The translations under genes were made by a program, and so were the position numbers. A model generated the notes under the pieces. It was not told the DNA's origin. It worked only from the letters and a program-made list of their open reading frames with translations, and did no database searches. Shown piece by piece: positions 4,905 through 32,102 of a stretch of DNA of 32,102 bases. How positions within the stretch are numbered: position 1 is the stretch's first letter; every line of letters starts with the position of its first letter. The stretch comes from Clostridiaceae bacterium (GTDB taxonomy: Bacteria > Bacillota > Clostridia > Acetivibrionales > DTU013), in contig JAAYBT010000269.1 of assembly GCA_012730015.1 (NCBI GenBank), positions 1-32,102 on the forward strand. The letters run 5' to 3'.

Positions 4905-5016
4905 AAAAACACACCTCAACAGCCCTTTTTTTTAGTCACCTACAAAAGTTCAACAAAACTCGCCTAAACTCCTTCTTGTTACACAAGTTTAATACTAATA
5001 ATTATTGCCATTTCGG

Positions 5017-12809: not shown

Positions 12810-12836
12810 CTCATCGGGGCTGTTTGGGGAGGGTAT

Positions 12837-16139: not shown

Positions 16140-16143
16140 TGTG

Positions 16144-17061: not shown

Positions 17062-17077
17062 GGAGAAATGGTGGATT

Positions 17078-17557
17078 ATGATTGATTATTCATTTATTAT
17101 AAGAAAAGCAACCGAAGCAGATGCGCCTGCCATCAGGGGCATCATGCAGGAGTCCTTTAGCAAATACAAAAACGATGTTGGACTCACAGGAGAGATGGAA
17201 GCCCTGGCGGAAACATGTGAAGATATCGTCAATGATATAAGGAGCAAAGAGGTTTATATCGCTCTGCTTGATAATGTAGCCGTTGGCAGCATAAGAGTAG
17301 AGCTATTGCCCGACAATACAGCTTACCTGAGCAGGTTTGCAGTCAGTCTCTCCCACAACAATATTGGAATCGGCATATCATTGATAAGCCTTGTGGACAA
17401 GCTGCTGATTGAGAGAGGCATCAAATGCGTCAAGCTTCACACTGCTTCAAAATACCATGACCTTGTGCGCTTCTACTACGGCAGGGGCTTCTACATAGAC
17501 TCCACCACAAAAGACAGAGGCTATATCAGGGCACTGATGGTGAAGGAATATCTCTAA
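17078..17557 (+). CDS. GNAT N-acetyltransferase, candidate short N-acetylglutamate synthase
   Basis: This 159-residue single-domain GNAT protein begins with FIIRKATEADAPAI (beta-1/alpha-1 of the fold). VAVGSIRVE and AYLSRFAVSLSHNNIGIGISLI form motif A, with the acetyl-CoA pyrophosphate loop at NNIGIGI. The C-terminal block VKLHTASKYHDLVRFYYGRGFYIDS is motif B. It follows argF by 16 bases with AGGAGAAA upstream. The cluster lacks argJ, which would otherwise supply N-acetylglutamate by recycling acetyl groups. A small GNAT of this size placed at the end of an arginine operon is therefore a reasonable candidate for the first step (ArgA function). The family also acetylates many other amines, so substrate identity is inference from context only. 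Confidence 0.82.
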   Translation: MIDYSFIIRKATEADAPAIRGIMQESFSKYKNDVGLTGEMEALAETCEDIVNDIRSKEVYIALLDNVAVGSIRVELLPDNTAYLSRFAVSLSHNNIGIGISLISLVDKLLIERGIKCVKLHTASKYHDLVRFYYGRGFYIDSTTKDRGYIRALMVKEYL

Positions 17558-17564
17558 GCACACA

Positions 17565-17774
17565 TCAACCGCTGATATAGTCGTCAAAGTTCAACCCATT
17601 CGTCTTACAGTACTTCATAATGGACATCAATATTTTTTTACCGCCACCTATACCCGTATTCAAATACCTGTATAGGTGGGACGGATCAACACCGAGCTCC
17701 CTTGCAAAGCGGTTGTAATTTCCTGCGCAATTGCTTGTCATAAGCTCACGTACTTTTTGTCTGTTCACATCCAT
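17565..17774 (-). CDS. Small Cro/CI-like helix-turn-helix protein
   Basis: This 69-residue protein consists mostly of a single helix-turn-helix: NYNRFARELGVDPSHLYRYLNTG, with the recognition helix around PSHLYRYL, followed by a glycine-rich turn (GIGGGKKI) and a last helix ending DDYISG. I choose the ATG at 17774 because GGAGGAGAAG lies six bases upstream; an in-frame start 20 codons earlier has no such site. It is convergent with the GNAT gene, with only seven bases between their ends. About 210 AT-rich bases separate it from ribU, in which I see no gene. Target and ligand are unknown. Confidence 0.75.
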   Translation of the reverse strand: MDVNRQKVRELMTSNCAGNYNRFARELGVDPSHLYRYLNTGIGGGKKILMSIMKYCKTNGLNFDDYISG

Positions 17775-17984
17775 TGACTTCTCCTCCAAACTCTTATTCG
17801 CGGTGAAATCAGCTATAAATGAAGCAAATTGCATATAATTACAGCAAATAGAATGCTTCTTAGGTAAATTATTACATATTTATTTAATTCTAGTACGCTT
17901 CTGGAATAATGTCAATGGATTTTCACAAAATATTGAAAATATTACCGTCAAATACTCACACAGATTGAGTACACCAAAGAGGCA

Positions 17985-18572
17985 TCACTCCAACCATCTA
18001 TTGACGACCTTGCTGACTGCTTTATATACAATAAAGGCAAATATCGAGTTTAGTCCGGCCTTAAGCAGGTTAAAGGGTATAATCGCGGGTACCAGCAAGC
18101 TTTTCACCGTTTCAATTGGTATTCCGTAAAAATTAGGTTGAATAATGAGATTGACCGGAATCATAACAGCCGCCATTGCAAGGGTTCCTGCAACAAGGGC
18201 AATAATAGCGCCTTTAAGACTGTGAATTTTCCTGTAAATCAAGCCCGCCAAAAACACAAAGGTTCCCGTAGCTATAACATGCATTACGAAGCCTACAAAT
18301 CCGTCCGGAGACATAAGGGCCTGTATAGCAGAAACAACAACCGTTATCAACAAACCTGAAAGAGGCCCGAAAAGAAATGCTCCGATTAATATTGGTACAT
18401 CTGCCGGCTCATAAATCAGGTAGGGTGCTGCCGGAATCAGTGGAAATCTTATTAGCAGCATAAAGACGATTGAGAGTGCTGACAATATAGCCAAAGTGGC
18501 CATCTTCCTGACTGTGATTTCTGGTTTTGATACAATTCTCTGGTTAGCCTCAGCTTTCTGATTAGCTTCCAT
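17985..18572 (-). CDS. ribU: Riboflavin ECF transporter S component RibU
   Basis: This 195-residue membrane protein has about five to six hydrophobic segments (from about residue 26). LPLYE-like substrate-site features are represented by FPLIPAAPYLIYEPADVPILIGAFLFGPLSG, a hallmark of RibU S components that bind riboflavin or FMN. It has no A, A' or T energising genes nearby and so should share a common ECF module encoded elsewhere. The start ATG at 18572 has GCGGAGG upstream. It is the only gene behind the FMN riboswitch, which independently supports riboflavin as the ligand. Expression is expected to fall when FMN is abundant. Confidence 0.92.
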   Translation of the reverse strand: MEANQKAEANQRIVSKPEITVRKMATLAILSALSIVFMLLIRFPLIPAAPYLIYEPADVPILIGAFLFGPLSGLLITVVVSAIQALMSPDGFVGFVMHVIATGTFVFLAGLIYRKIHSLKGAIIALVAGTLAMAAVMIPVNLIIQPNFYGIPIETVKSLLVPAIIPFNLLKAGLNSIFAFIVYKAVSKVVNRWLE

Positions 18573-18611
18573 TTTACATTACCTCCGCAAAATAAATTTA
18601 TTATGCGGGGA

Positions 18612-18645
18612 ACAAAAAATTCCCCGGAAATATAATCCCAGGGAA
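18612..18645 (-). terminator. Riboswitch-controlled intrinsic terminator upstream of ribU
   Basis: On the minus strand TTCCCTGG (18638-18645) pairs with CCGGGGAA (18620-18627) with one wobble pair and is followed at once by a run of six T. It lies between the FMN aptamer and the ribU ribosome-binding site, as expected for a transcription-terminating expression platform. Confidence 0.8.
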
Positions 18646-18668
18646 CATTAAAAACAAAACTGCATCGC

Positions 18669-18788
18669 AATCTTCTTCCATCCAGACTTTACTGTCGGCT
18701 CAGGAATCACACCTGATCGGCTTTCGCTCGCGGGCTAGCATATTATCGCATTACCGCCGGTAGGGACTCTCACCCTGCCCTGAAGATT
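18669..18788 (-). ncRNA. FMN riboswitch (RFN element)
   Basis: Read on the minus strand the element shows the conserved RFN blocks in order: a closing stem beginning AATCTTCAGGGCAGGG, then GAGAGTCCCTACCGGCGGTA, GCCCGCGAGC, GATCAGGTGTGATTCCTGA, GCCGACAGT, and AGTCTGGATG with the returning strand GAAGATT. All the highly conserved positions I know are present. It binds FMN and turns off the downstream ribU, probably through the terminator at 18612-18645. Confidence 0.97.
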
Positions 18789-18807
18789 ATATTCAATTAC
18801 TCTATTT

Positions 18808-18836
18808 ATATTACACCGAAGCATCGTCTGCGTCAA
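18808..18836 (-). promoter_or_regulatory. Sigma-A promoter of the FMN riboswitch/ribU transcript
   Basis: On the minus strand TTGACG (18831-18836) and TAATAT (18808-18813) are exactly 17 bases apart. The predicted start near 18801 lies just before the first base of the riboswitch. It begins about 15 bases past the stop codon of the upstream symporter gene, and no terminator is visible between them. Confidence 0.8.
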
Positions 18837-18850
18837 TAGCCCATGAATAT

Positions 18851-20326
18851 TTATTCCCGAGGCTTCCAAAGTGCATCAACAGGTTTACCGGTAAGCAGCT
18901 CAAAGTCGGCTCTCTCCTCCTCATTGAAGCTGTGGATACCTTCTCCGGCCTTCATCTTTCGCACACCTTTCAGCACATTATTAAAGCGCCTGCAGTCCAA
19001 TTTATAGCGCAGTGCAAAAAACAATGCACTTGCCAGAAACACAACCGGAATTATCACAAACATCCATTTGATGGTTGCCACTACATTCGAAGATGCGTAT
19101 TTGGTAGGATCAAAGGCATTTATGCTGCTTTTTAGAATATTGTATTCATTCTGATTAAATCCCGAAAGCTGCAGTCCGAACCCCAACAGCAAAATAGCAA
19201 GCCCACTGGAGAATTTTCTAAGAAAGGTGGTAAAACCGCTGTAGATTCCTTCCCTCCGTTTTCCGGTCATGAGCTCATCAACATCAAAGATATCGGATAA
19301 CATAGACCATGTCGCCAGATTGCCGGCTGCTGCTCCAAATGCAATGAACACTGCAAGTATGCATAGTATGATAAAAGGTGTTTCACTGGTTACAAAGGCA
19401 AAAGCTAAAGACGCCGCTATCCAGATAGGAATTCCCAGATATAGAGGATGGCATTTACCTTTTTTCTGAGCGATCAGGTTATGTAAAAACATAAAGAGAA
19501 GCTGAAACACAAGAAGTACACCCATCAGCGTTTCATAATTTTTATACTGCAGCACAACAATGTCTATATAGAACATAAAGAGCGCAAGGAGCAGGTCTAT
19601 AGCTACCTGAACAAATATGAATATTCCCAGGTATATACGGTAGGTTTTATTTTGAAGTACAGTGAACCAATTCCGCACAGAGAAATTTTCGGGCGTTGGC
19701 AGGTCTTCCCTTTCTTTTGTTCCAATAAAGGTAAAAAACCAGCATAATGCAAAGATCAGACCGAAAATAATTGCCATGATCAGATATCCAGTCTTCTGCT
19801 CCGGACCGTTCACCTCGCCGCCAATGGCTTTGATGATCATGCTCGGAATAATGGCCGCTATTATAGAAGTTCCGGCTGAAAAAACCATTCTGACAGTGGT
19901 ATAGCTGGTTCGCTCATTATAATCATCTGTCATTTCAGGCAGTATGGAATTGTATGGCACCATGACAATTGTGAAAGCTGTCCCGAATGACATGTACGCC
20001 AGCATGTGATAAATAAAAGCAGCTGTTTGCGATGTTATTCCGAATGAATACCACATCAAAACAAAGGAAACAAAGACAGGAATTATACCAATAAGGAAAT
20101 AAATACGGCGGCGGCCGTACCTGGAACGTGTCCTGTCAGACATGACCCCGACAATGGGATCAGTTACAGCATCCCAAAGCTTTCCTATAAATATGACTGT
20201 GGTAGCAAGAACAACAGGAAGTCCTTCGACGATAACCAGATAGTTCATATAGAGCATGCTGAATATAAGAAAAGCCCCGCCTCCGTAGATGTCTCCGCAT
20301 GCATAACCGATTTTTCTCTTCAACAT
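18851..20326 (-). CDS. Sugar:cation symporter of the GPH family (MFS)
   Basis: This protein of about 491 residues has roughly 12 hydrophobic segments and belongs to the glycoside-pentoside-hexuronide:cation symporter family (MelB, XynP, GusB). Diagnostic features are IGYACGDIYGGGAFLIFSML at the N-terminus, the helix 2 to loop sequence LWDAVTDPIVGVMSDRTRSRYGRRR, and LPEMTDDYNERTSYTTVRM near residue 130. I prefer the ATG at 20326, spaced about ten bases from GAAAGG, over a TTG at 20335. It is the last gene of the catabolic operon, about 65 bases after the aldehyde dehydrogenase gene. Family members import glycosides or uronides with Na+ or H+, so it probably takes up the operon's substrate. The exact sugar is unknown. 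Confidence 0.92.
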   Translation of the reverse strand: MLKRKIGYACGDIYGGGAFLIFSMLYMNYLVIVEGLPVVLATTVIFIGKLWDAVTDPIVGVMSDRTRSRYGRRRIYFLIGIIPVFVSFVLMWYSFGITSQTAAFIYHMLAYMSFGTAFTIVMVPYNSILPEMTDDYNERTSYTTVRMVFSAGTSIIAAIIPSMIIKAIGGEVNGPEQKTGYLIMAIIFGLIFALCWFFTFIGTKEREDLPTPENFSVRNWFTVLQNKTYRIYLGIFIFVQVAIDLLLALFMFYIDIVVLQYKNYETLMGVLLVFQLLFMFLHNLIAQKKGKCHPLYLGIPIWIAASLAFAFVTSETPFIILCILAVFIAFGAAAGNLATWSMLSDIFDVDELMTGKRREGIYSGFTTFLRKFSSGLAILLLGFGLQLSGFNQNEYNILKSSINAFDPTKYASSNVVATIKWMFVIIPVVFLASALFFALRYKLDCRRFNNVLKGVRKMKAGEGIHSFNEEERADFELLTGKPVDALWKPRE

Positions 20327-20392
20327 TCCAATCAACGCCTTTCAGATAACTTTATTTAGCCACAAACCAAAAGAAGCTTTCTAAAAATCTGC

Positions 20393-21895
20393 TTAAATAG
20401 TCCCATCCCATGTACTGACTTTTTCAGCTCTGATTTCTTCCTCATCAAACCATCTTGTTGTAACTGTCTTAGTTTTCGTATAAAAGCGGATGCCGTCCTT
20501 CCCTAGAACATGAAGATCACCAAAGAAGGAGCTTTTATGGCCGGAAAAGGGAAATACTCCTACAGGTACGGGTATCCCAACATTGATACCGACCATCCCG
20601 CCATCGGTGTATCGAGCAAATTCCCGGGCATAGTAGCCATTACTGGTGAAAATGACCGATCCATTGGCATAAGGATTTTCGTTCATTATTTTAAGTCCTT
20701 CTTCAAAGCTTGCAACACGCTTGATGCACAGTACAGGCCCGAATATCTCATCCGTGCCCACCTTCATCCCCGGCATTACATGATCGAAGATTGTCGGTCC
20801 CACATAGAAGCCCTTTTCAAATCCATCGACCACTTTGCCTCTTCCGTCGAGTATCAGCTTCGCTCCTTCTTTCACTCCGTCCTCGATGCACCTCTCGATA
20901 AAATCCTTGTGGGATTCCGAGACTACCGGACCAAGTTCTGAAGCCTTATCAAAAGCGGGTCCGACGACACGTTCCCTGCTAAGACGAACCAGCGCATCTG
21001 CAAGCCTGTCTGCAATGCTTTCCTGTACGACAACAACAGGTAACGCCATACAGCGCTCTCCTGCACAGCCAAGATAAGCATTAATGATACCTTTCGCGGT
21101 TCTCTCAATAGGTGCATCCTCAAGTACCAGTGCGTGGTTTTTTGCCTCGCATAATGCCTGGACTCGTTTTCCGGCCGCTGCCGCCGTAGAATAGATATGC
21201 TTGCCAACACTAGTCGATCCAACAAAAGTAATACCATTAACATCGGGATGACTAAGGAATATTTCCGCTTCATTCCTACTACATGTTACAATATTTAAAA
21301 CTCCGTCGGGAAGTCCCGCCTCTCTATACAATTCCGCGAATCGCATAGCTGTCAATGGGGTCATGCTGGCAGCCTTGAGCACGATTGTGTTCCCACAGGC
21401 TATACACATGGGTGTCATCCAACCCATCGGTATCATAGCCGGAAAATTGAAAGGCGCTATGCCTGCAAAAACACCAACAGACTCTCTGTATAGTACTGAG
21501 TCAAAGCCAGCAGAAGTGTCCATCAGTGATTCCCCCATCATGAGGTTTGGTGCGGATATAGCCTGTTCAGTTGCCTCTTTGGCTTTCAGCACATCTCCCG
21601 CCGCTTCATCAAGCACCTTTCCATTCTCGGTGGCAACCAGCAATGTAAGCTCATCCATATGCTTTTCTATCAATCCACGTAGCCGGTAGAGCACCTGCAC
21701 ACGCTTCATGACAGGAGTAGAGGACCAATCCTTATATGCAGCCTTTGCTGCCGAAATCGCCCTATCCACTTCCTCCTTCGTGCAGCATGGCGCCTGTGCA
21801 ATCACCTCACCAGTACTTGGATTATATACATTCATGTATTCCTTTGCAACAGATTCTATGAATTCATTATTGATAAACAATTTTACCTTTTTCAT
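20393..21895 (-). CDS. Methylmalonate/malonate-semialdehyde dehydrogenase-like (MmsA/IolA) aldehyde dehydrogenase
   Basis: This 500-residue aldehyde dehydrogenase carries the MmsA/IolA-type signatures GIAPFNFPAMIPMGWM (145-160) and GCAGERCMALPVVV, with catalytic Cys282 (276-289). In place of the usual ELGGK element it has the KNHA sequence (252-255) of CoA-acylating semialdehyde dehydrogenases. In that family the thioester is released by CoA, giving acetyl-CoA or propionyl-CoA. IolA does this in inositol catabolism and MmsA in valine breakdown. The NAD-site segment reads VLKAASMTP rather than the more usual VLKPSExxP, so it may be a divergent branch. Its ATG overlaps the IclR gene stop by four bases, with GGGAGG upstream. 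Substrate assignment is inference. Confidence 0.88.
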   Translation of the reverse strand: MKKVKLFINNEFIESVAKEYMNVYNPSTGEVIAQAPCCTKEEVDRAISAAKAAYKDWSSTPVMKRVQVLYRLRGLIEKHMDELTLLVATENGKVLDEAAGDVLKAKEATEQAISAPNLMMGESLMDTSAGFDSVLYRESVGVFAGIAPFNFPAMIPMGWMTPMCIACGNTIVLKAASMTPLTAMRFAELYREAGLPDGVLNIVTCSRNEAEIFLSHPDVNGITFVGSTSVGKHIYSTAAAAGKRVQALCEAKNHALVLEDAPIERTAKGIINAYLGCAGERCMALPVVVVQESIADRLADALVRLSRERVVGPAFDKASELGPVVSESHKDFIERCIEDGVKEGAKLILDGRGKVVDGFEKGFYVGPTIFDHVMPGMKVGTDEIFGPVLCIKRVASFEEGLKIMNENPYANGSVIFTSNGYYAREFARYTDGGMVGINVGIPVPVGVFPFSGHKSSFFGDLHVLGKDGIRFYTKTKTVTTRWFDEEEIRAEKVSTWDGTI

Positions 21896-22656
21896 ATTTG
21901 CCTCCCTTCTTCCGGTTCATATCCCAGCTGCTCTGAAACTTTATGTGCTGCCTCTATCAATTGACGCGGCACTATATCAGCTTTGCTTTTAATTCTGTTT
22001 ACAGGTCCTGAAATACCAACACTATAAAGAACGGTCCCTAGGTGGTTGTATATTGGCACTGCCATGCACATGATATCCTCACTCATTTCTCCATCATCGG
22101 TTGCGTAGCCTCTGGAGACGATTTCATCCAGTTCTTTACGAAGCTTTTCCGGATCAGTTATGGTTTTATTTGTATAGGGTTTGAAATCTATCCTCGCCAA
22201 AATGCTTTCTCGCTTATCCTCCTCACAAAACGCAAGCAGGCACTTTCCGACAGATGAACAGTATATAGGTTCCGCATTTCCCACCTTTGCATTTACTGCA
22301 AGAGGCGAGTCGGCCATTATTTGTTCTATAACCACAGCGCTGTCATTACTCAGCATGCATAAGTGAGACGATTCGCCTACACTTTCCACCAGGCTGGTCA
22401 TATAAGGTTTTGCTGTCGAAATTACATCTAGATTTTTGAGCAATTGGTCTGACAGACGCAGTATTCCGGGCCCTAGCTTGTATTTGGACGTATTACTATC
22501 CTGTGTAACGACATTGAATGAAATCAATGTATCAAGAATTCTGAATGCGGTGCTTTTATTAACACCCAGTTCTTCTGCAACCTGTGTTACACCAGCACTT
22601 TTCCTTTTTGATAGAAAGAAAAGTGCCTGCATTCCTCTTCCAAGTGATTGAATCAT
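21892..22656 (-). CDS. IclR family transcriptional regulator
   Basis: This 254-residue protein has an N-terminal winged helix (GMQALFFLSKRKSAGVTQVAEELGVNKSTAFRILDTL, about residues 8-44, quoted as two blocks divided at AGVTQ) and a C-terminal IclR effector domain with SSVGKCLLAF, GYATDDGEMSEDIMCMAVPIYN and SVGISGP. IclR proteins usually act as dimers on short palindromes and respond to a pathway intermediate. It is embedded in the catabolic operon, 45 bases after the RpiB-like gene and overlapping the dehydrogenase gene by four bases, so it is very likely the local regulator. A candidate operator is the half-site array at 28315-28340. The ATG at 22656 has GGAGAA upstream. Confidence 0.93.
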   Translation of the reverse strand: MIQSLGRGMQALFFLSKRKSAGVTQVAEELGVNKSTAFRILDTLISFNVVTQDSNTSKYKLGPGILRLSDQLLKNLDVISTAKPYMTSLVESVGESSHLCMLSNDSAVVIEQIMADSPLAVNAKVGNAEPIYCSSVGKCLLAFCEEDKRESILARIDFKPYTNKTITDPEKLRKELDEIVSRGYATDDGEMSEDIMCMAVPIYNHLGTVLYSVGISGPVNRIKSKADIVPRQLIEAAHKVSEQLGYEPEEGRQI

Positions 22657-22701
22657 AAGTTCTCCTCCGAAATACTCTGATAAGTATGTGCCTGGTACTC
22701 A

Positions 22702-23334
22702 CTACGGTATTTTGATATCTGCAAGTATTTCTTTAATACTGTCAGATTTTTGTTTTTGGTCAGCTACAAGACGATAAAAGGGCTTATGTGAAAATGCGGT
22801 TTGAATCAACTTGCGATCCAACGTATTTAGGATTTCTTCAAATGATTTATGCGTAGATCTTGATATGTCCTGCAAAATACAGCGGCTTTCCTTCTGACTT
22901 GCACTTCTCTGCGGCGGATAACCCTTACCGACATTGTCTGAAAAGAGCTTTTCAAAAATGTATCCAAGGTTCAGATCCCCTGCCCACCCGTACCCTTTAT
23001 TAAGAGCAAGAGATATGCAATTGCCTGCGTTGATGCTTGAAAACAGGAAAGCATCTATTGGTTCTGCAATCAAGCCACAGAAAACATTCGGATACTGCAT
23101 GGCAGAATTTAGAAAACCCTGCCCTGTCCCGCATCCTCCGATGACCATATCCACCGCCCCTAAGTTCAAGAGTACTCCCGCCATAAAACCTGTATGTATA
23201 TAGGTCAGTTCGGTTTGAAACTCACCATCAGTCATGCCGACATTGAAAACTTCCTGTCCGGAATATTCAAGTGCCGATAGAATGTCCCTGTTTTTTGAAC
23301 GGGCGGATACCTCATTTATTACTGCAACTCTCAC
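22702..23334 (-). CDS. RpiB/LacA/LacB-family sugar-phosphate isomerase-like protein
   Basis: This 210-residue protein is related to ribose-5-phosphate isomerase B and the galactose-6-phosphate isomerase subunits. The N-terminal strand is RVAVINEVSARSKNRDI. The active-site loop GGCGTGQGF has Cys68 at the place of the catalytic cysteine of RpiB, and GLIAEPIDAFLFSSINAGNCISL matches the second conserved block with the N-A-N-like anion site. It is longer than RpiB (about 150 residues), with roughly 60 extra C-terminal residues that I do not recognise. The start is a GTG at 23334 overlapping the transketolase stop by four bases. Beside a split transketolase it likely interconverts an aldose and ketose of four to six carbons. 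The substrate need not be ribose 5-phosphate. Confidence 0.85.
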   Translation of the reverse strand: MRVAVINEVSARSKNRDILSALEYSGQEVFNVGMTDGEFQTELTYIHTGFMAGVLLNLGAVDMVIGGCGTGQGFLNSAMQYPNVFCGLIAEPIDAFLFSSINAGNCISLALNKGYGWAGDLNLGYIFEKLFSDNVGKGYPPQRSASQKESRCILQDISRSTHKSFEEILNTLDRKLIQTAFSHKPFYRLVADQKQKSDSIKEILADIKIP

Positions 23335-24311
23335 ATGCCTCGCCTCCTTCCGATTGCTTTTTTAGCTTTGATACATATATCTCGAGCTGTCAGCCCATAT
23401 TTTTCCATTAGATAATCCTGTGTTCCTACCTCACCGAAGGTGTCGTTCACTCCCACACGTTCGAGCGGTATCGGGAAGTTTTCGCACACCACCTCTGAGA
23501 CAGCGCTTCCAAGTCCGTTTACGATATTGTGGTTTTCAGCTGTGACTATTGCACCGCAGCATTTTGCTGCATCAATAACCGCTTGAGAATCGATCGGCTT
23601 TATTGTATGCATGTCAATAACCATAGCATTGATTCCCTCCTCCGCAAGCATCTGCGCCGCCCTCAACGATTCATATACCATTATACCGCAAGCAATTATG
23701 GCAATACTATTACCCTCTCTTAAAACATTTGCTTTTCCTATTGAAAATTCAGCTTTTTCATCATAAATACGCATTGTTTTACGGCGTACATATCTCATGT
23801 AAAAATTTCCATAGGTTTCAGCCATATATCTGACCGCATACGGAAGCATTACAGCATCAGCGGGTTCAAAAACTATCATCCCAGGTATATTACGGATTAT
23901 CCCCATATCTTCAAATGGCATATGCGTACCCCCGTTTGAGGTAGCTGCCACACCGGCATCCGCACCGATGATTTTTACATTCAGGTCCTGGTAGGCGCAA
24001 GAAAGGAAGAGCTGGTCATAGACCCGGCGCGATGCGAATGTGCCAAATGCATGCAGATAAGGAACATATCCTGTCGCTGATAGTCCTGCTGCCATACCTG
24101 CTGCGTGCGCCTCCATGATCCCACAATTGATAGCCCGATCCGGGTATTCCTTATAGAAAGGCTTTGTTCCCATGGAACTGCTTGTATCCACATCGATGAC
24201 AAGAATCTTGTCGTTGCGCCCAGCCTCTTCTATAAGTGCATTGCAGTAATGCACGCGCATATCGGTTTTATCCGGCTGAAAGTCGATCAAAACATTGTTG
24301 TTACGTGTCAT
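23331..24311 (-). CDS. Transketolase-like, C-terminal subunit (PYR and C-terminal domains)
   Basis: This 326-residue protein is the second half of a transketolase. It contains the pyrimidine-binding domain with the cofactor-activating glutamate in GIMEAHAAGMAAGL (about residues 44-57), the TGGTHMPFEDMGI-like region (here NGGTHMPFEDMGIIRNIPGM), and a C-terminal domain ending in EVGTQDYLMEKYGL. It pairs with the upstream N-terminal subunit, whose stop overlaps its ATG by four bases. Such split enzymes form the active site at the subunit interface and move two-carbon ketol units. Split forms occur in central metabolism of Clostridia and also in dedicated sugar pathways, for example apulose-4-phosphate (AptA/AptB) and sulfoquinovose (SqwG/SqwH) breakdown. 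Placement in this operon suggests a dedicated substrate. Confidence 0.92.
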   Translation of the reverse strand: MTRNNNVLIDFQPDKTDMRVHYCNALIEEAGRNDKILVIDVDTSSSMGTKPFYKEYPDRAINCGIMEAHAAGMAAGLSATGYVPYLHAFGTFASRRVYDQLFLSCAYQDLNVKIIGADAGVAATSNGGTHMPFEDMGIIRNIPGMIVFEPADAVMLPYAVRYMAETYGNFYMRYVRRKTMRIYDEKAEFSIGKANVLREGNSIAIIACGIMVYESLRAAQMLAEEGINAMVIDMHTIKPIDSQAVIDAAKCCGAIVTAENHNIVNGLGSAVSEVVCENFPIPLERVGVNDTFGEVGTQDYLMEKYGLTARDICIKAKKAIGRRRGM

Positions 24312-25198
24312 CTTCCCTGCCCCTCTTTTTCTATATCTGTCTGTTCTTTCTCCAGAGCTTTTTGAAGTCTTCTTTCTACTTCACATATAGCCTCTTCAGC
24401 CATAGCTTCGGTAACCACCATATAATGATTGAAGGAAGCAATCTCGGCAAAGGAACACCCCTGTCCCTTTTGAGTGTCCAGCAGGACAACAGTGGGCTTC
24501 CCAATAGATTTACTGATCTGTTTCGAATCCATAAGTGCTCTGTAAATATCCCCACAGTCCTTCCCATCAGCCTTCTGCACTTCAAAACCAAAAGCAGAGA
24601 ATTTCACACCGAGATCGAATGTGGAGCAGATATCATTTGTATATCCATCAAGCTGGCGTTTGTTGCAATCCACGATTAAGATCATATTGTCCAATTTCCT
24701 GTGCGCAGCAAACTGTATGCCTTCCCACACCTGGCCTTCCTGTAATTCTCCGTCCCCTATTATTATGTAAACATAATTATCCAAGCCCTTCATTTTGTTG
24801 CCGAGCGCAGCCCCGATGCCAAGAGAAATACCCTGCCCCAGCGAACCCGTGCTCAGATCGATCCCTGGTGTTTTCAACCTGTCACAGTGGCTGGGTAGAC
24901 TGGTGCCATTCTGATTCAGCGTGTTGAGTAACTCAATGTCAAAATAACCCTTGTATGCAAGCGCCGAATAAAGCGCCGGTCCGCAATGCCCCTTGGACAG
25001 CACCAGCCAATCCCGATCCTCTTTCTGAGGATTCCCGGGATCAACATTCATGACGCCTTCATACAGCACAGCCAGAACTTCGCAAATGGACATGGAGCCT
25101 CCGATGTGCCCGTAACCTGCTGCAGCAATAGAGCTAATTGTCAGCTTGCGTATATGGGCGGCGGCCTTAATAAATTGATTGATATTAACATTATTTAT
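24308..25198 (-). CDS. Transketolase-like, N-terminal (PP) subunit with no canonical start codon
   Basis: This is the first half of transketolase, which binds the diphosphate and Mg2+ of TPP. The cofactor motif is IGDGELQEGQVWEGIQ, followed by VDCNKRQLDG, with STGSLGQGISLGIGAAL before it. The first ATG is at 25093, but the conserved block AAAHIRKLTISSIAAAGYGHIGGSM begins upstream of it (quoted in two parts, divided at SIAAA). The block includes the TPP-site histidine in GHIGG. That upstream frame is open to about 25231 and contains no ATG, GTG or TTG. The best-placed initiator is AUA at 25196-25198, reading NNVNINQFIK next, about seven bases after GGGG and overlapping the Gfo/Idh gene end. 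I therefore annotate from 25198. A sequencing error or other rare start remains possible. Confidence 0.85.
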   Translation of the reverse strand: MNNVNINQFIKAAAHIRKLTISSIAAAGYGHIGGSMSICEVLAVLYEGVMNVDPGNPQKEDRDWLVLSKGHCGPALYSALAYKGYFDIELLNTLNQNGTSLPSHCDRLKTPGIDLSTGSLGQGISLGIGAALGNKMKGLDNYVYIIIGDGELQEGQVWEGIQFAAHRKLDNMILIVDCNKRQLDGYTNDICSTFDLGVKFSAFGFEVQKADGKDCGDIYRALMDSKQISKSIGKPTVVLLDTQKGQGCSFAEIASFNHYMVVTEAMAEEAICEVERRLQKALEKEQTDIEKEGQGR

Positions 25199-26405
25199 TG
25201 CGCTTACCCCATATATGTAAAATCCCCTTTTCCTTCTTTATTTCTTTATCCTCGTAATAGTCCAGATGGACCTCCTGTTTTCTAACCGAGGAATCAATCG
25301 CAGCCAGTGAAAATCTTAATACTTCTCTGCCCCTTTTACCGTTCAATACAGGCTCACGATCATTCTTTATCGCATCTATAAAGTCCAATGTCGAGCTTTT
25401 GAAGGATTCGCCCCAGTCTACAGGCATATCCCAATATTCGCTCAGTTTTCCGTCCCGGTACATTACTACCGGAGCTACTGTCGGTAATAATGTACCCGTA
25501 CAGCGGGTCACCCAGATGATACCTCTTGAACCCGTGATCTCCATGCGCTCATCACAGGTGTAATATTTACTCTGTATATACATATCCTTCGAGTCAACGA
25601 TATCCATAATACCGTAAATCTTGCTGTCCCTGTGCTTCCACATGATAGCTGCGGGGCAGTCCTGATAGATTCCGGGCAACACCTGTGTACTGTCAATCCA
25701 GGCTGATACCTTTTCAACCTCTCCCAGCATATAAAGGATTATGGAGAATTTATGATAACCATCATCAAATACAAGAGGCCCGCCACCTGCAAGCGTATCA
25801 TTCAAGCGCCACAGCCAAGACTTGGGATCGATCTTCCAGCCTGTTTCCTTCAGTTCCCCGGTCAATTCTACTCCAGCTTTTTTTGCCCTTCCTTCCGGAT
25901 TAGGCTGATTTACCGAGCCAAGGCCGGCATTGTTCATTTTGTACCGGACGGATACCGGTTCGCCGATTTCTCCTCTGTCCAGAAGTGTTTTGGCAAATTG
26001 GTAGGGCGGATAGAACACAAAGTTCTCAAAAACCTTCAGCTTTACGCCATTTCTATCTGCCGCAGCAATCATCTCATCGCACTGAGCCAGATTCATTGCC
26101 ATAGGCTTTTGTACCGATACGTGTTTCCCCGCTTCGCACGCTTTTACTGTCATTTCACAGTGAAGATGATGGGGAACAAGGATTTCAACGGCGTCTACTG
26201 CCTTATCTATTAGTACTTCCTCATAGCTTTTGTAAACTTTTTCTACACCATAGGTCTTTGCAAATTGCTCTGCTTTCTTTATATCCTTGTCACAAACGCC
26301 ATATAGCTCAGCATCAGGATTATTCTCATATCCAAGGACATGCAGTGTAGCAATCCTGCCGCACCCCACAAGTACGATGTGCAGCTTTTCTTTTTTGGCA
26401 GACAT
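25191..26405 (-). CDS. Gfo/Idh/MocA family NAD(P)-dependent oxidoreductase
   Basis: This 404-residue protein has an N-terminal Rossmann fold with the dinucleotide loop VLVGCGRIATLH (about residues 12-23), VPHHLHCEMTVKACEAGKHV, and the family's EKP-type motif in the form VQKPMA (about 97-102), whose lysine is a proposed catalytic residue. The C-terminal domain includes GGGPLVFDDGYHKFSIILYM, with the expected D-x-x-x-H arrangement. The family oxidises or reduces sugars, inositols and amino-sugar derivatives, for example IolG for inositol. The substrate is not predictable. The ATG at 26405 has a G-rich site upstream. It lies between the TPP enzyme and transketolase genes and overlaps the inferred start of the latter by eight bases. 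Confidence 0.9.
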   Translation of the reverse strand: MSAKKEKLHIVLVGCGRIATLHVLGYENNPDAELYGVCDKDIKKAEQFAKTYGVEKVYKSYEEVLIDKAVDAVEILVPHHLHCEMTVKACEAGKHVSVQKPMAMNLAQCDEMIAAADRNGVKLKVFENFVFYPPYQFAKTLLDRGEIGEPVSVRYKMNNAGLGSVNQPNPEGRAKKAGVELTGELKETGWKIDPKSWLWRLNDTLAGGGPLVFDDGYHKFSIILYMLGEVEKVSAWIDSTQVLPGIYQDCPAAIMWKHRDSKIYGIMDIVDSKDMYIQSKYYTCDERMEITGSRGIIWVTRCTGTLLPTVAPVVMYRDGKLSEYWDMPVDWGESFKSSTLDFIDAIKNDREPVLNGKRGREVLRFSLAAIDSSVRKQEVHLDYYEDKEIKKEKGILHIWGKRNK

Positions 26406-26447
26406 GCATTTCCCCCCTTGCCCTTTTTGCTCAATATAAGTATTATC

Positions 26448-28241
26448 TTAAATGGTCTCTTCCTGTCTGTAGTTCTCATATGCAGTACGTCTGACTGAAT
26501 CATAAGCGGGTATAGGTACATCCCACCATCCGAATGCCTTACCGCCGCTATAGGGGTATTCTCTGCAGACGTCAACATGAATAAGTGCCGGCCTGTTTGA
26601 AGCCAATGCGTTATGTAAAGCAGTCTTGACCTCTTCTTTTTTAGATATGCTTTGGCTATGTATCCCAAATGCTTCTGCGATTTTTTTGAAATCCGGCGAA
26701 TATATGGCGCCGTTCTTTTCCCAATCGTTCCCGAATGCTTTGTCCTGCCCCAGAACATCCGCCTGCAGATCTTTTATTGCCATCCATCCACAGTTATTGG
26801 CCAAGACAACAACTACAGGGATATTATACTGTGCCATGGTTGCCAACTCCTGAATAACCATAAGGAGGTCGCCGTCTCCAAGCAGTGATACAACAGGTCT
26901 GTCCGGGCATGCGAGTTTCGCACCCATTGCTGCCGGGAGTGCCCAGCCCATAGTAGAGAAACCGCCTGTAGTCAGGTTGCAGTACCTTTCCTTGTAGCAA
27001 TACTCCTGAAACAGCTGAGCCTGTGTGTTTCCGGAGGAAGTTGAAATGATAGTGTTGTCCGGCAAATGCTCGTTCATTTTGCCGACAAGCTGGGATATGG
27101 TGATTTTATCCGTGTTGACACTTCGTATTTCCCCCAGCTGCGCAGCCCATGATGCTTTCAGATCAGCTATTTCATTTAGATAGCCGCTTCTATCAGTATT
27201 ATCCTTTCCATATGCGTCAATGAGCTTCAAAAGAGCATCGCTCAGATCACTGTTGATTCCGACATCCGCCATATAGTTTTTACCGATCTCATTTGGATCC
27301 ATATCTATATGTATGAGTTTGGTGTCCGGGAAATTGAAGCTGATCCCTTTCCTGTACGAACAGGTGGTTTCATCAGCAAACCGAGTACCAACTGCCAGGA
27401 TTGCATCCGCCTTCCTACAAAGCTCGAGTCCGACAGGTGTTCCTTTTGAACCGGTGTGAAAGCCATATTGTGGGTGTATCTCCGAAACAGCTCCTTTTCC
27501 TGCAAGGGTAGTAATGATGGCGGCGCCCCAACACTCAGCAAGCTTCTCTATAAGCTCACCCGCTTTCGCACGAAGCGCACCTCCGCCTGCCAGTATGACA
27601 GGGCGTTTTGCACTCTTCATTAACCGGATAGCCTGTTCAATTAATCTACTATCCGCACAAGGTTTGGAATCAAGGTTGACGGCAACTTCTTGATTTGGAT
27701 TTACTTTATGATAAGTGCATTGAACATCCATCGGCAGCATTATCGCACATGGTCCCGGTCTTCCGGTCGTCATCATATGGAAACTACGCTTAAGCATCCT
27801 GGGCAACTGTTCAACCGACTCTGCGCGCCAGCTCCTCTTTGCCAGAGGTTCCAGCGAACGTATGATATTACTGTCCTGATACCGTTCAATCTCTTGAAGA
27901 ACTCCTACACCCTTCATATTTACATGTGTATCCCCGCATAGCTGTAAAAAGGCTGTCGAGTCTACATAAGCGGTTGCAAGGCCAATGCAGGAGTTTAATG
28001 TTCCCGGGCCAATGGATGAAAAGGATGCCAAGGGCTTTCCGCTCATTCGATAATATCCATCTGCTATTGCTGTTGCTGCTTGCTCGTGTTTTACCTGAAG
28101 GTATTTGATTTTGCCGTCTTGATCGGCCTTTCTGATGGCATCGAACAATCCCATGACACCATGTCCCGGAATACCCAGGATATAGGGTACGCCCTCTTTA
28201 ATGAGCGCATTTACAATGATCTCTCCCCCTGTTTGCTTCAT
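26448..28241 (-). CDS. TPP-dependent enzyme, acetolactate synthase/IolD-like
   Basis: This protein of about 597 residues is in the acetohydroxyacid-synthase superfamily. The N-terminal PYR domain has QTGGEIIVNALIKEGVPYI and the cofactor-activating glutamate in VKHEQAATAIADGY. The central domain includes RPVILAGGGALRAKAGELI. The C-terminal PP domain carries the TPP motif LLGDGDLLMVIQELATM to VVLANNCGWMAIK. The C-terminus, GWWDVPIPAYDSVRRTAYENY, recalls IolD, the trihydroxycyclohexanedione hydrolase of inositol catabolism. It lacks obvious FAD-site sequences, but I cannot exclude a glyoxylate carboligase or synthase role. I choose the second ATG (28241) because AAGGAG is then about eight bases upstream. 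It is the first gene of the eight-gene operon and starts close to the divergent GH105 promoter region. Confidence 0.88.
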   Translation of the reverse strand: MKQTGGEIIVNALIKEGVPYILGIPGHGVMGLFDAIRKADQDGKIKYLQVKHEQAATAIADGYYRMSGKPLASFSSIGPGTLNSCIGLATAYVDSTAFLQLCGDTHVNMKGVGVLQEIERYQDSNIIRSLEPLAKRSWRAESVEQLPRMLKRSFHMMTTGRPGPCAIMLPMDVQCTYHKVNPNQEVAVNLDSKPCADSRLIEQAIRLMKSAKRPVILAGGGALRAKAGELIEKLAECWGAAIITTLAGKGAVSEIHPQYGFHTGSKGTPVGLELCRKADAILAVGTRFADETTCSYRKGISFNFPDTKLIHIDMDPNEIGKNYMADVGINSDLSDALLKLIDAYGKDNTDRSGYLNEIADLKASWAAQLGEIRSVNTDKITISQLVGKMNEHLPDNTIISTSSGNTQAQLFQEYCYKERYCNLTTGGFSTMGWALPAAMGAKLACPDRPVVSLLGDGDLLMVIQELATMAQYNIPVVVVLANNCGWMAIKDLQADVLGQDKAFGNDWEKNGAIYSPDFKKIAEAFGIHSQSISKKEEVKTALHNALASNRPALIHVDVCREYPYSGGKAFGWWDVPIPAYDSVRRTAYENYRQEETI

Positions 28242-28314
28242 ATGCATTTCTCCTTAAGAAAAATACTTTCATTACTATTGTCTATCATAATATGGTAATG
28301 GTCAATGCAATTTC

Positions 28315-28340
28315 GCAACCGGGTTGCACCATGTACAACC
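28315..28340. repeat. Operator-like half-site array in the divergent promoter region
   Basis: Three related half-sites are present: GCAACC (28315-28320) and GGTTGC (28322-28327) form a perfect 13-base palindrome, and CAACC (28336-28340) forms a second, wider inverted pair with GGTTG (28322-28326). The array sits about 75 bases upstream of the TPP-enzyme gene in a 320-base region between divergent genes. In the rest of that region I see a promoter toward GH105 and a separate palindrome CCGATATCGG (28456-28465), but no gene. The array is a likely target of the operon's IclR protein or of a LacI-type regulator. Confidence 0.5.
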
Positions 28341-28501
28341 GAAATGGCTTTCCCTTTTCACTCAACACATTACCATTTTATTTTCGCCTTATTCAAAAGT
28401 AGACAGACTACAAGTATACGCCTCAGCAGATTCTGATCTTATCGCCATTATACCGCCGATATCGGTTTTCTTCTTTTCGCAGAAGCACTTTGTTGAGGGG
28501 A

Positions 28502-28530
28502 TTGCGACCACGGGAGTAAAAGGATAATAT
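28502..28530 (+). promoter_or_regulatory. Sigma-A promoter of the GH105-type gene
   Basis: TTGCGA (28502-28507) and TAATAT (28525-28530) are exactly 17 bases apart, placing the start near 28537, about 30 bases before the ATG at 28566. The palindrome CCGATATCGG (28456-28465) lies about 40 bases upstream of the -35 element and could be a regulatory site. Confidence 0.65.
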
Positions 28531-28565
28531 AGACATGAAAAAAGTATTAAAATGGAGGTGCTCCC

Positions 28566-30743
28566 ATGACCTACTATATAGATAAGGAACAGGCTATTCA
28601 AATGAGGACAAGCAACACGGATACTATACTAAAAACTGTCGCCAATCGCTATATAGCTCAGAATCCCCCCTATGAAATATCCTATTGCGCATGGCATATG
28701 GATGGCATATATCAAGACATGCAGTATCAATATGTCTTTGATTTTGATAAAAAATTCCCGGAAGCGCCTCTGCAAAGCAACATATATGCCTGGAGCAAGA
28801 TATGGTGTGATCAAGATACAGTCAAGGCTTTCGAAATCAGATGCTTTGGTCCTATCATAGTCTATTGCAACGGCGAAAGGGTTTATAAGCCGGACACCGA
28901 GACAGAAAGGAACCGGGGAGCGGTCGGAAGCTTCTCCCTAAGCCTGAAGCAGGGCTGGAACAGCATTGTTTTGCAGTTTATCTGCACAAAGGCAGGCTAC
29001 GGGGGCATATTTGGGGCACCCTTTTCAAGGTACAACCCCTTAAATTACTACATCCCCTCCGCAGACCGCGAGGGCCAAAAGGGCTGGCTATTTACTTCAC
29101 CACTTACTGAGCCTTTAGAAAGCCTTCCTCTCCCCGGAAGCACTGAGTCCGAAACAGGACTTGATTGGTATCCCCAGAAAGAATGGAGTCAAGAGGAGCT
29201 TGAATATAAGCAAATTAGAAGAATGTATTCCCTTAGGAAAGACTGCTATGTCCTGGGGTGGAGCCGCATTACCACCAAGAAGTCCGGGGAATACACCTTT
29301 TATGGCAGTCATGCAGGGGCGGTAGAGATTTTTCTGGATCATGAACGAATATTTCAATCACGACGAACCGGAAGCTTCCGCTTTCAGGTCAGACTGAAGC
29401 ATGGCAGTCACAGCATCCTGGTCAAGAATCACTGCGCCGATAAGGATTGGGGATTTGACCTTTCTAGCCTTGATGACGATAGAGAAGTCAGATTTGAAAG
29501 CCCCGTCAGATTGTGGGGTTCGTCCGAGAAATGGTTCTACCTGGGACCTTTTTCTGATTCACAAAGCCTTAATATTAAAGAGCTATACTCGATGGACAGG
29601 CCCTTTGACGGCGCCGATGGAAGGATATACTGGAGGCTGGACCACCCCGAGACAGTGATTCGCCCCTATAACGATAACCCATTATTCGGTCAGTGGAATT
29701 ATCCTCTTGGGGTAACCCTGTATGGCCTGGTCGAGGCCGGAAGACTCTTAGACAATCAGGCAATGCTGCAATATGCGGCTGACCATGTGAGCATTTGCAC
29801 GAAAGCTTTTGAATTGGATATGTGGGAAAAAGAACAGTACGGCACCTCCGGAATGCACAATCAACTGACCACGATACACTCACTGGATGACTGTGGTTCT
29901 TTTGGATCCCTCATGCTGGAAGCTTCGGATATTCTAAAGGGCAATGAGCACATCCAAATTGCTGACTATATTGCCGATTTCATAAAGAATAAGTTGGAAA
30001 GGCTGCCTGACGGCGGTTTTTTCCGAGCCGATTCCGACAGTCAAGCAATAAGCGGGACGCTTTGGGCGGATGACCTGTTCATGAGTGTTCCTTTCCTGTG
30101 CCGTTACTACAAAATGACCGGCAAGCAGGAATACATAGACGATGCAGCGGAGCAAATGGTCATATATCATAAATATCTATACCTGGATGATAGAAAAATC
30201 ATGTCCCATGTTTATGACTTCAAAGCCGATATGGCAACAGGAATTGCCTGGGGGCGTGGAAACGGATGGGTGGCTTTCAGCTATTCCGAAATACTTGCCT
30301 TCCTTCCGAAGGATCATTCCCTTGCAAATCAACTGGTCAATAACTTTAATGATCTGTGCGAAGGTTATCTCGCTCTACAGGATGATTCCGGACTGTGGCA
30401 CCAGGTATTAACCGACCCGGAATCATATGCTGAAGCATCCTGTACATCCATGTTTACCTGTGCTTTCGCCAGAGGTGTACGCAATGGGTGGCTGCGCGAT
30501 TCAGCCTCATATATCAAAGCTGTAGAAAAAGCATGGCTGGGGCTTTGTTCCCATGTGATTGATAACCTGGGAAATATATATGGCATATGCAAGGGCTCAA
30601 GTTATTCATTCTCGGAGGACTACTACAAAAACGATCTGGGCTGGAATCTGAACGACACCCACGGAACCGGCATCGTACTGCTCGCCGGCGTGGAATACCG
30701 CAAGCTTATGTGTTTGCGCCACCACAAAATGTCAGTAAGCTGA
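28566..30743 (+). CDS. GH105-type unsaturated rhamnogalacturonyl hydrolase with duplicated N-terminal modules
   Basis: The C-terminal half of this 725-residue protein (about 365-715) is an (alpha/alpha)6-barrel of the GH88/GH105 group. The motifs are FGQWNYPLGVTLYGL, GTLWADDLFMSVPFLCRYY (catalytic Asp in WADD, near residue 500), WGRGNGWVAFSY, LWHQVLTDPESYAEASCTSM and DTHGTGIVLLAG. Such enzymes remove 4,5-unsaturated uronic acids left by pectate or rhamnogalacturonan lyases. No signal peptide is present, so it should act in the cytoplasm on imported oligosaccharides. The first 340 residues are extra relative to ordinary GH105 enzymes of about 375 residues. They hold two similar beta-sandwich modules (NGERVY...GSFSLSLKQGWNSIVLQ and DHERIF...GSFRFQVRLKHGSHSILVK). 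The ATG follows GGAGGTG. It is divergent from the catabolic operon. Confidence 0.9.
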   Translation: MTYYIDKEQAIQMRTSNTDTILKTVANRYIAQNPPYEISYCAWHMDGIYQDMQYQYVFDFDKKFPEAPLQSNIYAWSKIWCDQDTVKAFEIRCFGPIIVYCNGERVYKPDTETERNRGAVGSFSLSLKQGWNSIVLQFICTKAGYGGIFGAPFSRYNPLNYYIPSADREGQKGWLFTSPLTEPLESLPLPGSTESETGLDWYPQKEWSQEELEYKQIRRMYSLRKDCYVLGWSRITTKKSGEYTFYGSHAGAVEIFLDHERIFQSRRTGSFRFQVRLKHGSHSILVKNHCADKDWGFDLSSLDDDREVRFESPVRLWGSSEKWFYLGPFSDSQSLNIKELYSMDRPFDGADGRIYWRLDHPETVIRPYNDNPLFGQWNYPLGVTLYGLVEAGRLLDNQAMLQYAADHVSICTKAFELDMWEKEQYGTSGMHNQLTTIHSLDDCGSFGSLMLEASDILKGNEHIQIADYIADFIKNKLERLPDGGFFRADSDSQAISGTLWADDLFMSVPFLCRYYKMTGKQEYIDDAAEQMVIYHKYLYLDDRKIMSHVYDFKADMATGIAWGRGNGWVAFSYSEILAFLPKDHSLANQLVNNFNDLCEGYLALQDDSGLWHQVLTDPESYAEASCTSMFTCAFARGVRNGWLRDSASYIKAVEKAWLGLCSHVIDNLGNIYGICKGSSYSFSEDYYKNDLGWNLNDTHGTGIVLLAGVEYRKLMCLRHHKMSVS

Positions 30744-30808
30744 CGGTATTGCCCAAAACACTCTCGCCACAGGATACTATCACAAGAGAACAGGCCATTA
30801 CTATGATA
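30744..30808 (+). pseudogene. Scrap of an S-layer-homology (SLH) domain
   Basis: Immediately after the GH105 stop codon, the +2 frame reads KTLSPQDTITREQAITMI, which matches the C-terminal half of an SLH domain (the ITREQA segment). The coding similarity ends abruptly at about 30808, where the next codons come from an unrelated gene fragment on the other strand. There is no start codon or upstream SLH sequence, so this looks like a remnant left at a rearrangement junction. The match is short and rests on recognition alone. Confidence 0.45.
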
Positions 30809-30854
30809 CCTCGTCATAGGTGTAGCCGCAAATAGAGCATACATATTTAGCCAT
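30801..30854 (-). pseudogene. Rubredoxin truncated after its first CxxC
   Basis: An ATG at 30854 opens a frame reading MAKYVCSICGYTYDEVS then stop. The first 15 residues are a textbook rubredoxin N-terminus with the first CxxC iron-binding pair. A complete rubredoxin is about 52 residues with a second CPxCG; here the sequence is lost after YDE, at about 30810, where it meets the SLH remnant. It cannot bind iron in the normal way. The ATG lies inside the last codons of the IscU-like fragment. Confidence 0.7.
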
Positions 30855-31159
30855 GCTCAGGTAATCCGTCCAAAGCATCTGAGATGTCCTTGTTTGTTAT
30901 CACAAGCACTTCATTAATTGTTTTTCCTTTGACAAGAACGGTTGTGATACTGGCGGAAGCAAGCGCGGCGACACAGCCGCAAATTTTGAAGCTGACATCT
31001 TTAATGATATCATCTTCAACCCTTATATAGAGCCTCATGGTGTCGCCGCATCCTGGATCACCTGCATCGCCTATCCCATTCGCATCTTCCATTTCACCGG
31101 CATTACGAAGGGTTGGAAAAATGATCTATCACTTCATCTGTAAACAGTCCGATAGACAT
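30847..31159 (-). pseudogene. IscU/NifU-like Fe-S scaffold gene, frameshifted and 3'-truncated
   Basis: An ATG at 31159, ten bases after the Mrp-type gene, reads MSIGLFTDEVIDHFSNP and then hits a stop. In the next frame the family sequence resumes as RNAGEMEDANGIGDAGDP. One extra T in CCTTCGT (about 31106-31112) restores the known HFxNPRNxGE motif. The body keeps the first cluster-binding cysteine in GDPGCGD and the second in CGCVAA, and ends ALDGLPEHG. The normal C-terminus, with the third conserved cysteine in a HCS-type motif, is missing and is replaced by the rubredoxin fragment. It is therefore very likely non-functional, unless the frameshift is a sequencing error, in which case the truncated end would still lack a cluster ligand. 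Confidence 0.75.
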
Positions 31160-31168
31160 AGCGTTACC

Positions 31169-32102
31169 TTATTCGCCGCACTCGTCGTGATGCTGATGTT
31201 CATGGCAAACAGAACCTGTTGACTTCAGCTCACCCTTCAGATAGTTGAGAACAGCGGTTTTCGCATCGCCGGAAGCACCCACAACAACCTCGACATTCCT
31301 TTCATTGAAGATATCAACAGCGCCGCCGCCCATGCCACCGCTGATTATTACGTTCACACCGCGATCGGCAAGGAAATTAGGTAGGAAGCCGGGCTTATGA
31401 CCAGGGTTTGGTATAGACTCTTCATTTGTAATTCTTCCGTTCTCAACATCGTAAATCAGAAAATTGACACAGTGACCAAAATGCTCCGTCACGTTCTTAC
31501 CTTCGCCAGCAACTGCTATTTTCATCATTTCTTTTTCCTCCGAATTCTCAAGTATTTTGGATATATTATCGAACCAGTCCTCATCATAGAGTTCAATCAT
31601 GCCCTTATCGCAGGCTGCTGAAATTTTGGGATCAATAGGGAGCTTGGCAAGAACCTTAAGGTTATGCTTCTCGGCAATTTCGTCGATATGACTATCACCG
31701 AAAATTTTGTATTCCTTACCGTTATCAGGGCATTTGAAATAGGACATATTTTCAACAAGACCGATAACCGGAATGTTCATCATCTCTGCCATCTTAACCG
31801 CTTTTGACACGATCATTGAAACAAGTTCCTGCGGGGAGGTTACTATAATAATTCCGTCAATGGCTAAAGACTGGAAAACGGTCAGGGGTACGTCCCCGGT
31901 TCCGGGAGGCATGTCGATGAACATGAAGTCCACATCGCCCCAAATAACGTCTGTCCAGAACTGCTTAACTGTATTGCCGAGAATTGGCCCTCTCCAAATA
32001 ACAGGATCGGTGTCGTTTTCAAGGAGGAGGTTGATAGACATAATATCAATCCCGGTCTTGCTTTTTAAAGGATACAAACCGAATTCACTACCAGTAGCCT
32101 TA
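31169..32102 (-). CDS. Mrp/NBP35-type ATPase fused to a NifX/NafY-like domain (5' end beyond window)
   Basis: The frame is open through the window's last base, so the N-terminus with the Walker A motif is missing. Visible Mrp features are FMFIDMPPGTGDVPLTV, IIIVTSPQELVSMIVSKAV and VIGLVENMSYFKCP. In many relatives the last motif continues as a CxxC that binds a bridging 4Fe-4S cluster; here it reads CPDNG, so the second cysteine is Asn. From about 180 residues before the end a second domain begins (MKIAVAGEGKNVTEHFGHC, then NPGHKPGFLPNFLADRGVNV and ISGGMGGGAVDIF), the dinitrogenase iron-molybdenum cofactor (NifX/NifB-C/NafY) type. The tail CHEHQHHDECGE is a probable metal-binding patch. Mrp proteins carry Fe-S clusters for assembly. 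Its downstream partner, an IscU-like gene, is broken. Confidence 0.88.
   Translation of the reverse strand, partial: KATGSEFGLYPLKSKTGIDIMSINLLLENDTDPVIWRGPILGNTVKQFWTDVIWGDVDFMFIDMPPGTGDVPLTVFQSLAIDGIIIVTSPQELVSMIVSKAVKMAEMMNIPVIGLVENMSYFKCPDNGKEYKIFGDSHIDEIAEKHNLKVLAKLPIDPKISAACDKGMIELYDEDWFDNISKILENSEEKEMMKIAVAGEGKNVTEHFGHCVNFLIYDVENGRITNEESIPNPGHKPGFLPNFLADRGVNVIISGGMGGGAVDIFNERNVEVVVGASGDAKTAVLNYLKGELKSTGSVCHEHQHHDECGE

Follow-up and report, generated by a model that had tools for sequence, protein, structure and literature searches.

The DNA analysed here, called the window, is the whole of contig C238, which is 32,102 bp long. It belongs to draft genome G000, which measures 2.85 Mb in 278 contigs and is 87% complete. 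Near one end of this contig, between a GH105 gene on the plus strand and an mrp gene on the minus strand, lies a stretch of about 400 bases with the remains of three other genes. This scar is 1.0–1.4 kb away from the contig end, which itself cuts mrp.

The GH105/GH88-type hydrolase (28566–30743, plus strand) is an open reading frame of 725 aa. It matches Pfam Glyco_hydro_88 with an E value of 1.2e-64, over profile positions 25–351 of 352. Since the profile is matched to its end, little of the gene appears to have been lost. Its stop codon (30741–30743) falls within the next feature, a transposon-end-like stretch on the plus strand at 30727–30753 (TGTC...TGACGG), and the last GH105 codons are read from there too. 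The preliminary description of this DNA did not contain this stretch, which is an addition of the present analysis.

Next comes a scrap of an SLH gene (30754–30808, plus strand), representing the latter half of a single SLH repeat. Translation of the plus frame at 30743 gives TVLPKTLSPQDTITREQAITMI. The Pfam SLH match covers profile positions 30–44 of 44 and, with E 0.022 and 15.1 bits, lies below the cut-off of 20.8. In DNA, the 56 bp at 30753–30808 are 82% identical to an SLH gene at C221:15466–15521, and the match ends at 30808. This is the sole match to the scrap found in G000 outside C238, and it lies inside an open gene of 792 aa. From its degree of identity, the C221 gene would be a relative of the scrap and not its donor. 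A gapped alignment to the SLH gene spans 30744–30808 and thus overlaps the transposon-end-like stretch, which makes the left edge of the scrap uncertain by some 10–20 bases (about 30744–30762).

The first 46 bp of a rubredoxin-domain gene, or 15 codons and one base, occupy 30809–30854 on the minus strand. Read from 30854, this strand gives MAKYVCSICGYTYDEVS*, a frame that stops after 17 codons. The 46 bp are 89% identical to the start of a 222-aa rubredoxin-domain gene in a related locus, L040 (6426–6471), and 90% identical over 40 bp to another, L096. A rubredoxin domain spans about 47 residues and holds two CxxC pairs; the piece has the first pair alone. The Pfam Rubredoxin profile, applied to the typed peptide, returned E 8.4e-4 and 19.8 bits, under its cut-off of 23.

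The third remnant is an iscU/nifU-like pseudogene (30853–31159, minus strand). Its frame opens with an ATG at 31159 and stops after 18 codons. At 31108–31109 there is an extra base, a frameshift, which is absent from all six relatives aligned. Behind it, an open reading frame of 81 codons (30847–31092) matches NifU_N with E 1.2e-23, over profile positions 20–100 of 127. Homology ends at 30853–30854, after residue 101 of the 127 in the L040 protein, so that roughly the last 26 residues, the last fifth, are missing. Between the frameshift and the 3’ loss, no complete NifU_N domain stands in a single open frame. The NCBIfam NifU_clost model gives 103.4 bits versus a cut-off of 187.9; the intact L040 protein, at 168, likewise stays below. 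IscU/NifU_N scaffold proteins have three conserved cysteines. The window retains the GDPGCGD and ICGC segments, and the LHCS segment of L040 is missing.

These remnants had been described beforehand, from the letters alone, as a rearrangement scar: an SLH scrap, a truncated rubredoxin on the minus strand, and an IscU-like gene with a one-base frameshift and a lost C-terminus, with breakpoints at 30808–30811 and 30855. That picture stands. Each piece is confirmed by a DNA or profile match, the rubredoxin homology to L040 ends at 30809, the alignment to six relatives bears out the damage to iscU, and the homology edges agree with the breakpoints to within about 2 bases.

A reading of the short pieces as functional small genes, or as a regulatory region, with no more than a likeness to the larger genes is very improbable. 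The 81-codon frame does stay open past the frameshift, but it has neither the start region nor the 3’ part that bears the LHCS cysteine in L040. In the rubredoxin piece just one of two CxxC pairs is present and the frame stops early, the homologies end abruptly, and zero Rfam families reach gathering score in the scar stretch. No function is seen for the scraps, and they are taken here as remnants.

Some further candidates were considered. In iscU, the changes unique to the window are 5 synonymous versus 6 non-synonymous; in mrp they are 21 versus 3 (p 0.015). This suggests relaxed selection on iscU in the window alone, but the five relatives pooled have 14 to 13 in the same gene, which undercuts it. 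An inverted repeat at 30694–30750 is just one among about five comparable groups in the window. The scar sequence has no match in plasmids. By eye, in six-frame readings, no further scraps were recognised in 13 other stretches of the window, the 14th being the scar. Elsewhere in the window, an FMN riboswitch (RF00050, 120.9 bits) lies upstream of an ECF transporter gene at 18666–18791 on the minus strand, and a short minus-strand frame at 17555–17990 looks, judged by eye, like a small helix-turn-helix protein.

The ancestral operon in relatives

The mrp gene (31169–32101, minus strand) has 310 codons in the window, its start lying outside the contig. Pfam ParA (3.7e-62) and Nitro_FeMo-Co (1.4e-21) both match in one open reading frame, which makes it of the MrpORP type. 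It is 97.7% identical to residues 90–399 of the 399-aa L040 protein. A protein search with mrp gave 537 confirmed stretches, of which the best 80 loci were examined. Among these, six closely matching ones extend into iscU. Five of the six (L040, L041, L042, L094 and L096) are 89.8–91.1% identical to the window end over 1,246 positions, and there mrp adjoins an intact iscU. The sixth, L043, is 84.5% identical over 1,024 bp. One more locus, L095, is 90% identical to the window and ends within mrp.

The fullest picture comes from L040. It begins with two MinD-like ferredoxin ATPases and a metallo-beta-lactamase-fold gene, followed by mrp. Downstream of mrp it has the 127-aa NifU_N protein, two ArsP-type permeases, the 222-aa rubredoxin-domain protein and a ferredoxin/rubrerythrin protein. 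Three of the loci (L041, L042 and L094) terminate inside the permeases, while L040 and L096 extend to the rubredoxin gene. Contig C101 of G150, from the same bin as L042, has the order permease, permease, rubredoxin, ferredoxin.

Window positions 30854–32102 align to L040 from mrp into iscU, as far as residue 101. Between the two segments that abut in the window, L040 carries 1,178 bp. L096 has lost most of the permeases, and its corresponding gap is 243 bp. The order and strand of iscU and rubredoxin are alike in the window, L040 and L096, and this makes the join in the window a deletion in cis. The idea that an mrp-iscU-rubredoxin unit was broken is thereby partly upheld. The unit exists in L040 and its intervening piece is lost in the window, but the ancestral arrangement has two permeases inside. 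Relatives do, as had been proposed for comparison, keep mrp beside an intact iscU, with the rubredoxin gene included in L040 and L096.

This operon varies among relatives, and it has been damaged elsewhere too. At 4943–5521 of L043, in mid-contig, iscU is cut after 27 codons beside an intact mrp, with tRNA-Met and tRNA-Leu genes behind; this is a separate truncation of the same gene. L044 has no iscU, and permeases and rubredoxin come after its mrp. L107 and L120, apparently one contig of the same-family genome G002, have rubredoxin directly behind mrp.

The MrpORP protein and the ORP complex have been described (PMC6345978). Going by the available part of that paper, the operon here is like the ORP gene cluster in its mrp with C-terminal Nitro_FeMo-Co domain and, in relatives, in the two upstream MinD-like ferredoxin ATPases. 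It differs from what that part describes in the L040 tail behind mrp, an iscU/nifU-like gene, two ArsP-type permeases and a rubredoxin-domain gene, which in the window is broken.

Origin of the operon end and reliability of the joins

The two sides of the scar resemble different genomes. DNA was compared with 12 genomes, seven of them of the same family; in several of the 12, scoring covered 25 first-look candidates. The carB-argF part of C238 is found at 73–74% identity in five of the seven family genomes, and at 67% in the other two (G001 and G003). The last 1.25 kb of the window is 90–91% identical to G148, G149, G150 and G151, and 1.0 kb of it is 84% identical to G152. Among the family genomes, mrp has a DNA match in G002 alone, at 75%, with rubredoxin and ferredoxin directly behind and no iscU. 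At the protein level, a search of eight genomes including G000 gave 84% for G002 and 31% for G001.

SecA serves as a yardstick. The SecA of G000, on C221, is 77–83% identical to that of the four family genomes tested. Versus G148, G149, G150, G151 and G152 the figures are 54, 57 (over 518 residues), 59, 67 and 63%. In an mrp tree of 82 rows, the window falls in a 13-row group with support 99/97 (from a bootstrap that had not settled), and the G002 sequence lies outside it. The carB-argF part is syntenic with same-family genomes, and the mrp-iscU end resembles more distant ones.

The preliminary description had suggested the reverse, that an incoming GH105 and catabolic block broke a resident mrp-iscU-rubredoxin unit. 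The block from 18.9 to 30.7 kb is indeed scarcely matched in the seven family genomes (where, in some, 25 candidates were scored): there are short pieces in G003, about 0.1 kb in G001, and the match of the tip in G007. A transposon-end-like stretch also sits at the block’s edge. The unit itself, however, hardly looks resident. Its mrp is found at the DNA level in one of seven family genomes, there without iscU, and the window mrp clusters with sequences from outside the family. This makes the proposal improbable, with family-type DNA at carB-argF and an operon end like that of genomes with distant SecA. With so few DNA counterparts in those seven genomes, the catabolic block may itself be accessory.

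Because the operon end is of a type seen in other families, it was likely acquired horizontally before it broke up. Compared with plasmids and phages, the operon end gives partial matches, in 5 and 4 records respectively, at 67–73% identity. Base composition is uninformative: GC3 is 0.48 for mrp, 0.38–0.53 for other window genes and 0.40–0.47 for the L040 genes.

The bins themselves need some care. One Brocadia-labelled bin holds two such mrp contigs (L041 and L094), and one Oscillospiraceae bin holds four (L042, L045, L095 and L109). Operon contigs in bins of unrelated label suggest either that contigs of public MAGs were misbinned or that the operon is mobile, and some bins with close mrp contigs are probably contaminated. 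L043 is less prone to this doubt because SecA shares its contig.

A rival reading is that the last 1.3 kb of the window came from another organism of the sample, through an assembly error or a chimeric molecule in the library. The scar is close to the contig end, and the operon end is 90–91% identical to genomes with distant SecA. A DNA-level search of G000 turned up no contig carrying the genes that lie upstream of mrp. Similar mrp contigs in bins labelled Acholeplasmataceae, Brocadia, Oscillospiraceae and Clostridiaceae also suggest misbinning. The joins themselves speak against the assembler as the cause. Among 44 contig sequences of G000 (7 of them without the far end), all three pairs with shared contig ends share exactly 127 bp, which points to de Bruijn graph assembly with k = 127. 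A misjoin by such an assembler should share about 127 bp. Measured against relatives that are not identical, the overlap is a single base where iscU meets rubredoxin and at most one base where rubredoxin meets SLH, so an assembler misjoin, the artefact that could have undone the earlier description, is unlikely; this leaves room for a chimeric DNA molecule. The pieces of 46 and 55 bp are also shorter than 127. Furthermore, a random chimera would not reproduce the collinear arrangement of iscU and rubredoxin that the window shares with L040 and L096. The iscU gene also bears a frameshift, and comparable damage is seen in mid-contig in L043 and on C140. Taken as a whole, a foreign end joined by artefact is unlikely. 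The probable explanation is a genuine scar in a decaying region, where unrelated stretches of DNA were joined at least twice and probably three times.

A possible course of events

Comparison with relatives shows the first step. A MrpORP-type operon of mrp, the iscU-like gene, two permeases, the rubredoxin-domain gene and ferredoxin/rubrerythrin suffered a deletion in cis that took the last fifth of iscU and all that follows up to the rubredoxin start codon, with order and strand kept. In a second step, a further cut behind codon 15 of the rubredoxin gene would have brought it up against an SLH gene fragment lying in the opposite orientation; here the junction is observed, and its mechanism is conjectural. 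The iscU frameshift is an additional lesion.

The third step concerns the other side of the scar. When window positions 12103–32102 were compared with the 12 genomes, a 43-bp match of 84% (E 2.8e-4) turned up in the same-family genome G007. Positions 30727–30753 equal 26 of 27 bases of a stretch on G007 contig C500, about 150 bp upstream of a DUF6431 gene, with a DDE integrase gene next. The alignment of this tip scores 53, where the best of 300 dinucleotide shuffles reaches 31. This makes 30727–30753 the putative outer tip of a DUF6431/DDE element that would have landed at the 3’ end of GH105. Apart from the outermost 24–27 bp, the element would since have gone, and the tip now abuts the SLH scrap.

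Related elements that also have an AAA ATPase gene occur in three Bacillota plasmids (of Planococcus, Alicyclobacillus and Ruminococcus). An end repeat like that of the window is found at the edge of one of the three, the Planococcus element. The window is like this class of DUF6431, DDE integrase and AAA ATPase elements in its 27-bp match to the G007 element and in the similar Planococcus repeat. It is unlike them in retaining that stretch alone, and in the elements of Alicyclobacillus and Ruminococcus no such repeat was recognised. At up to 2 mismatches the end motif matches once in the window, so there is no second transposon end there, and no transposase was found among the window reading frames scanned. 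No intact copy of the transposon was found in 374 kb of sampled sequence plus four other stretches, and the end pattern is absent from the viral contigs searched.

Joins that share about one base fit end joining. G000 has the genes for this, Ku and LigD, adjacent on C124 (L148 and L150), and their products could have made such joins. The LigD of C124 has a GPDKAV repeat in its N-terminal part.

The scar is most likely a real, multi-step decay scar that is ordinary in kind. Gene scraps at rearrangement points are common, and a single scar matters little. Its use is as a worked example, in which relatives supply the ancestral order and contig overlaps argue against an assembler misjoin. The transposon-end-like tip, together with the end-joining pair, makes for a testable route.

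The missing halves had been expected elsewhere in the genome, and the exact halves were not found. C140 holds a different fragment, a 185-bp piece that is 84% identical to L040 and runs from the end of a rubredoxin gene into the beginning of the ferredoxin gene. This piece and the window break are not reciprocal halves. A weak TetR_N match, below cut-off, flanks the piece, as does a 60-bp stretch that in a Vibrio plasmid lies directly behind an IS200/IS605 tnpA. Elsewhere in G000, C89 encodes a full-length IscU, and rubredoxin domains occur on C58 and C260; C58 has a rubredoxin-ferredoxin pair that is 72% identical to L040.

A more speculative idea, and an improbable one, is that in this uncultured clostridial lineage transposon ends repeatedly seed end joining by Ku and LigD, which would fuse short pieces of arriving and resident genes into multi-fragment scars such as those on C238 and C140. 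If true, foreign operons would be broken up after arrival, and past failures of gene transfer could be read from the scars. Should the multi-fragment pattern recur genome-wide, it would have implications for the way bacteria rid themselves of acquired operons. In 447 kb of G000 (45 sequences including the window), a limited protein set matched 5 of 160 intergenic stretches: the window scar, C140, one 127-bp contig overlap and two others. With two of these five being scars, scars of such a kind did not prove frequent.

Short-patch double illegitimate recombination was considered as well, and a literature search found no paper on it among the matches listed. Much small-scale diversity of bacterial genomes has been attributed to illegitimate recombination (PMC2884548). 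That source, in its available part, also has non-homologous end joining as almost absent in prokaryotes save for a few species. The segments in that part are like the scar in being short pieces of different genes, joined with little shared sequence. Here, in a single strain, several pieces lie side by side, one of them resembles a transposon tip, and the genome has Ku and LigD.

C140 (L133) is of some interest by itself. Positions 4365–4900 form a second multi-fragment scar, with TetR_N-like, rubredoxin/ferredoxin and IS200/IS605-associated pieces. By eye, it also has a frame like the start of a flavin reductase, which has no Pfam match. Behind the scar, on the other strand, there are LRR-like and SLH frames.
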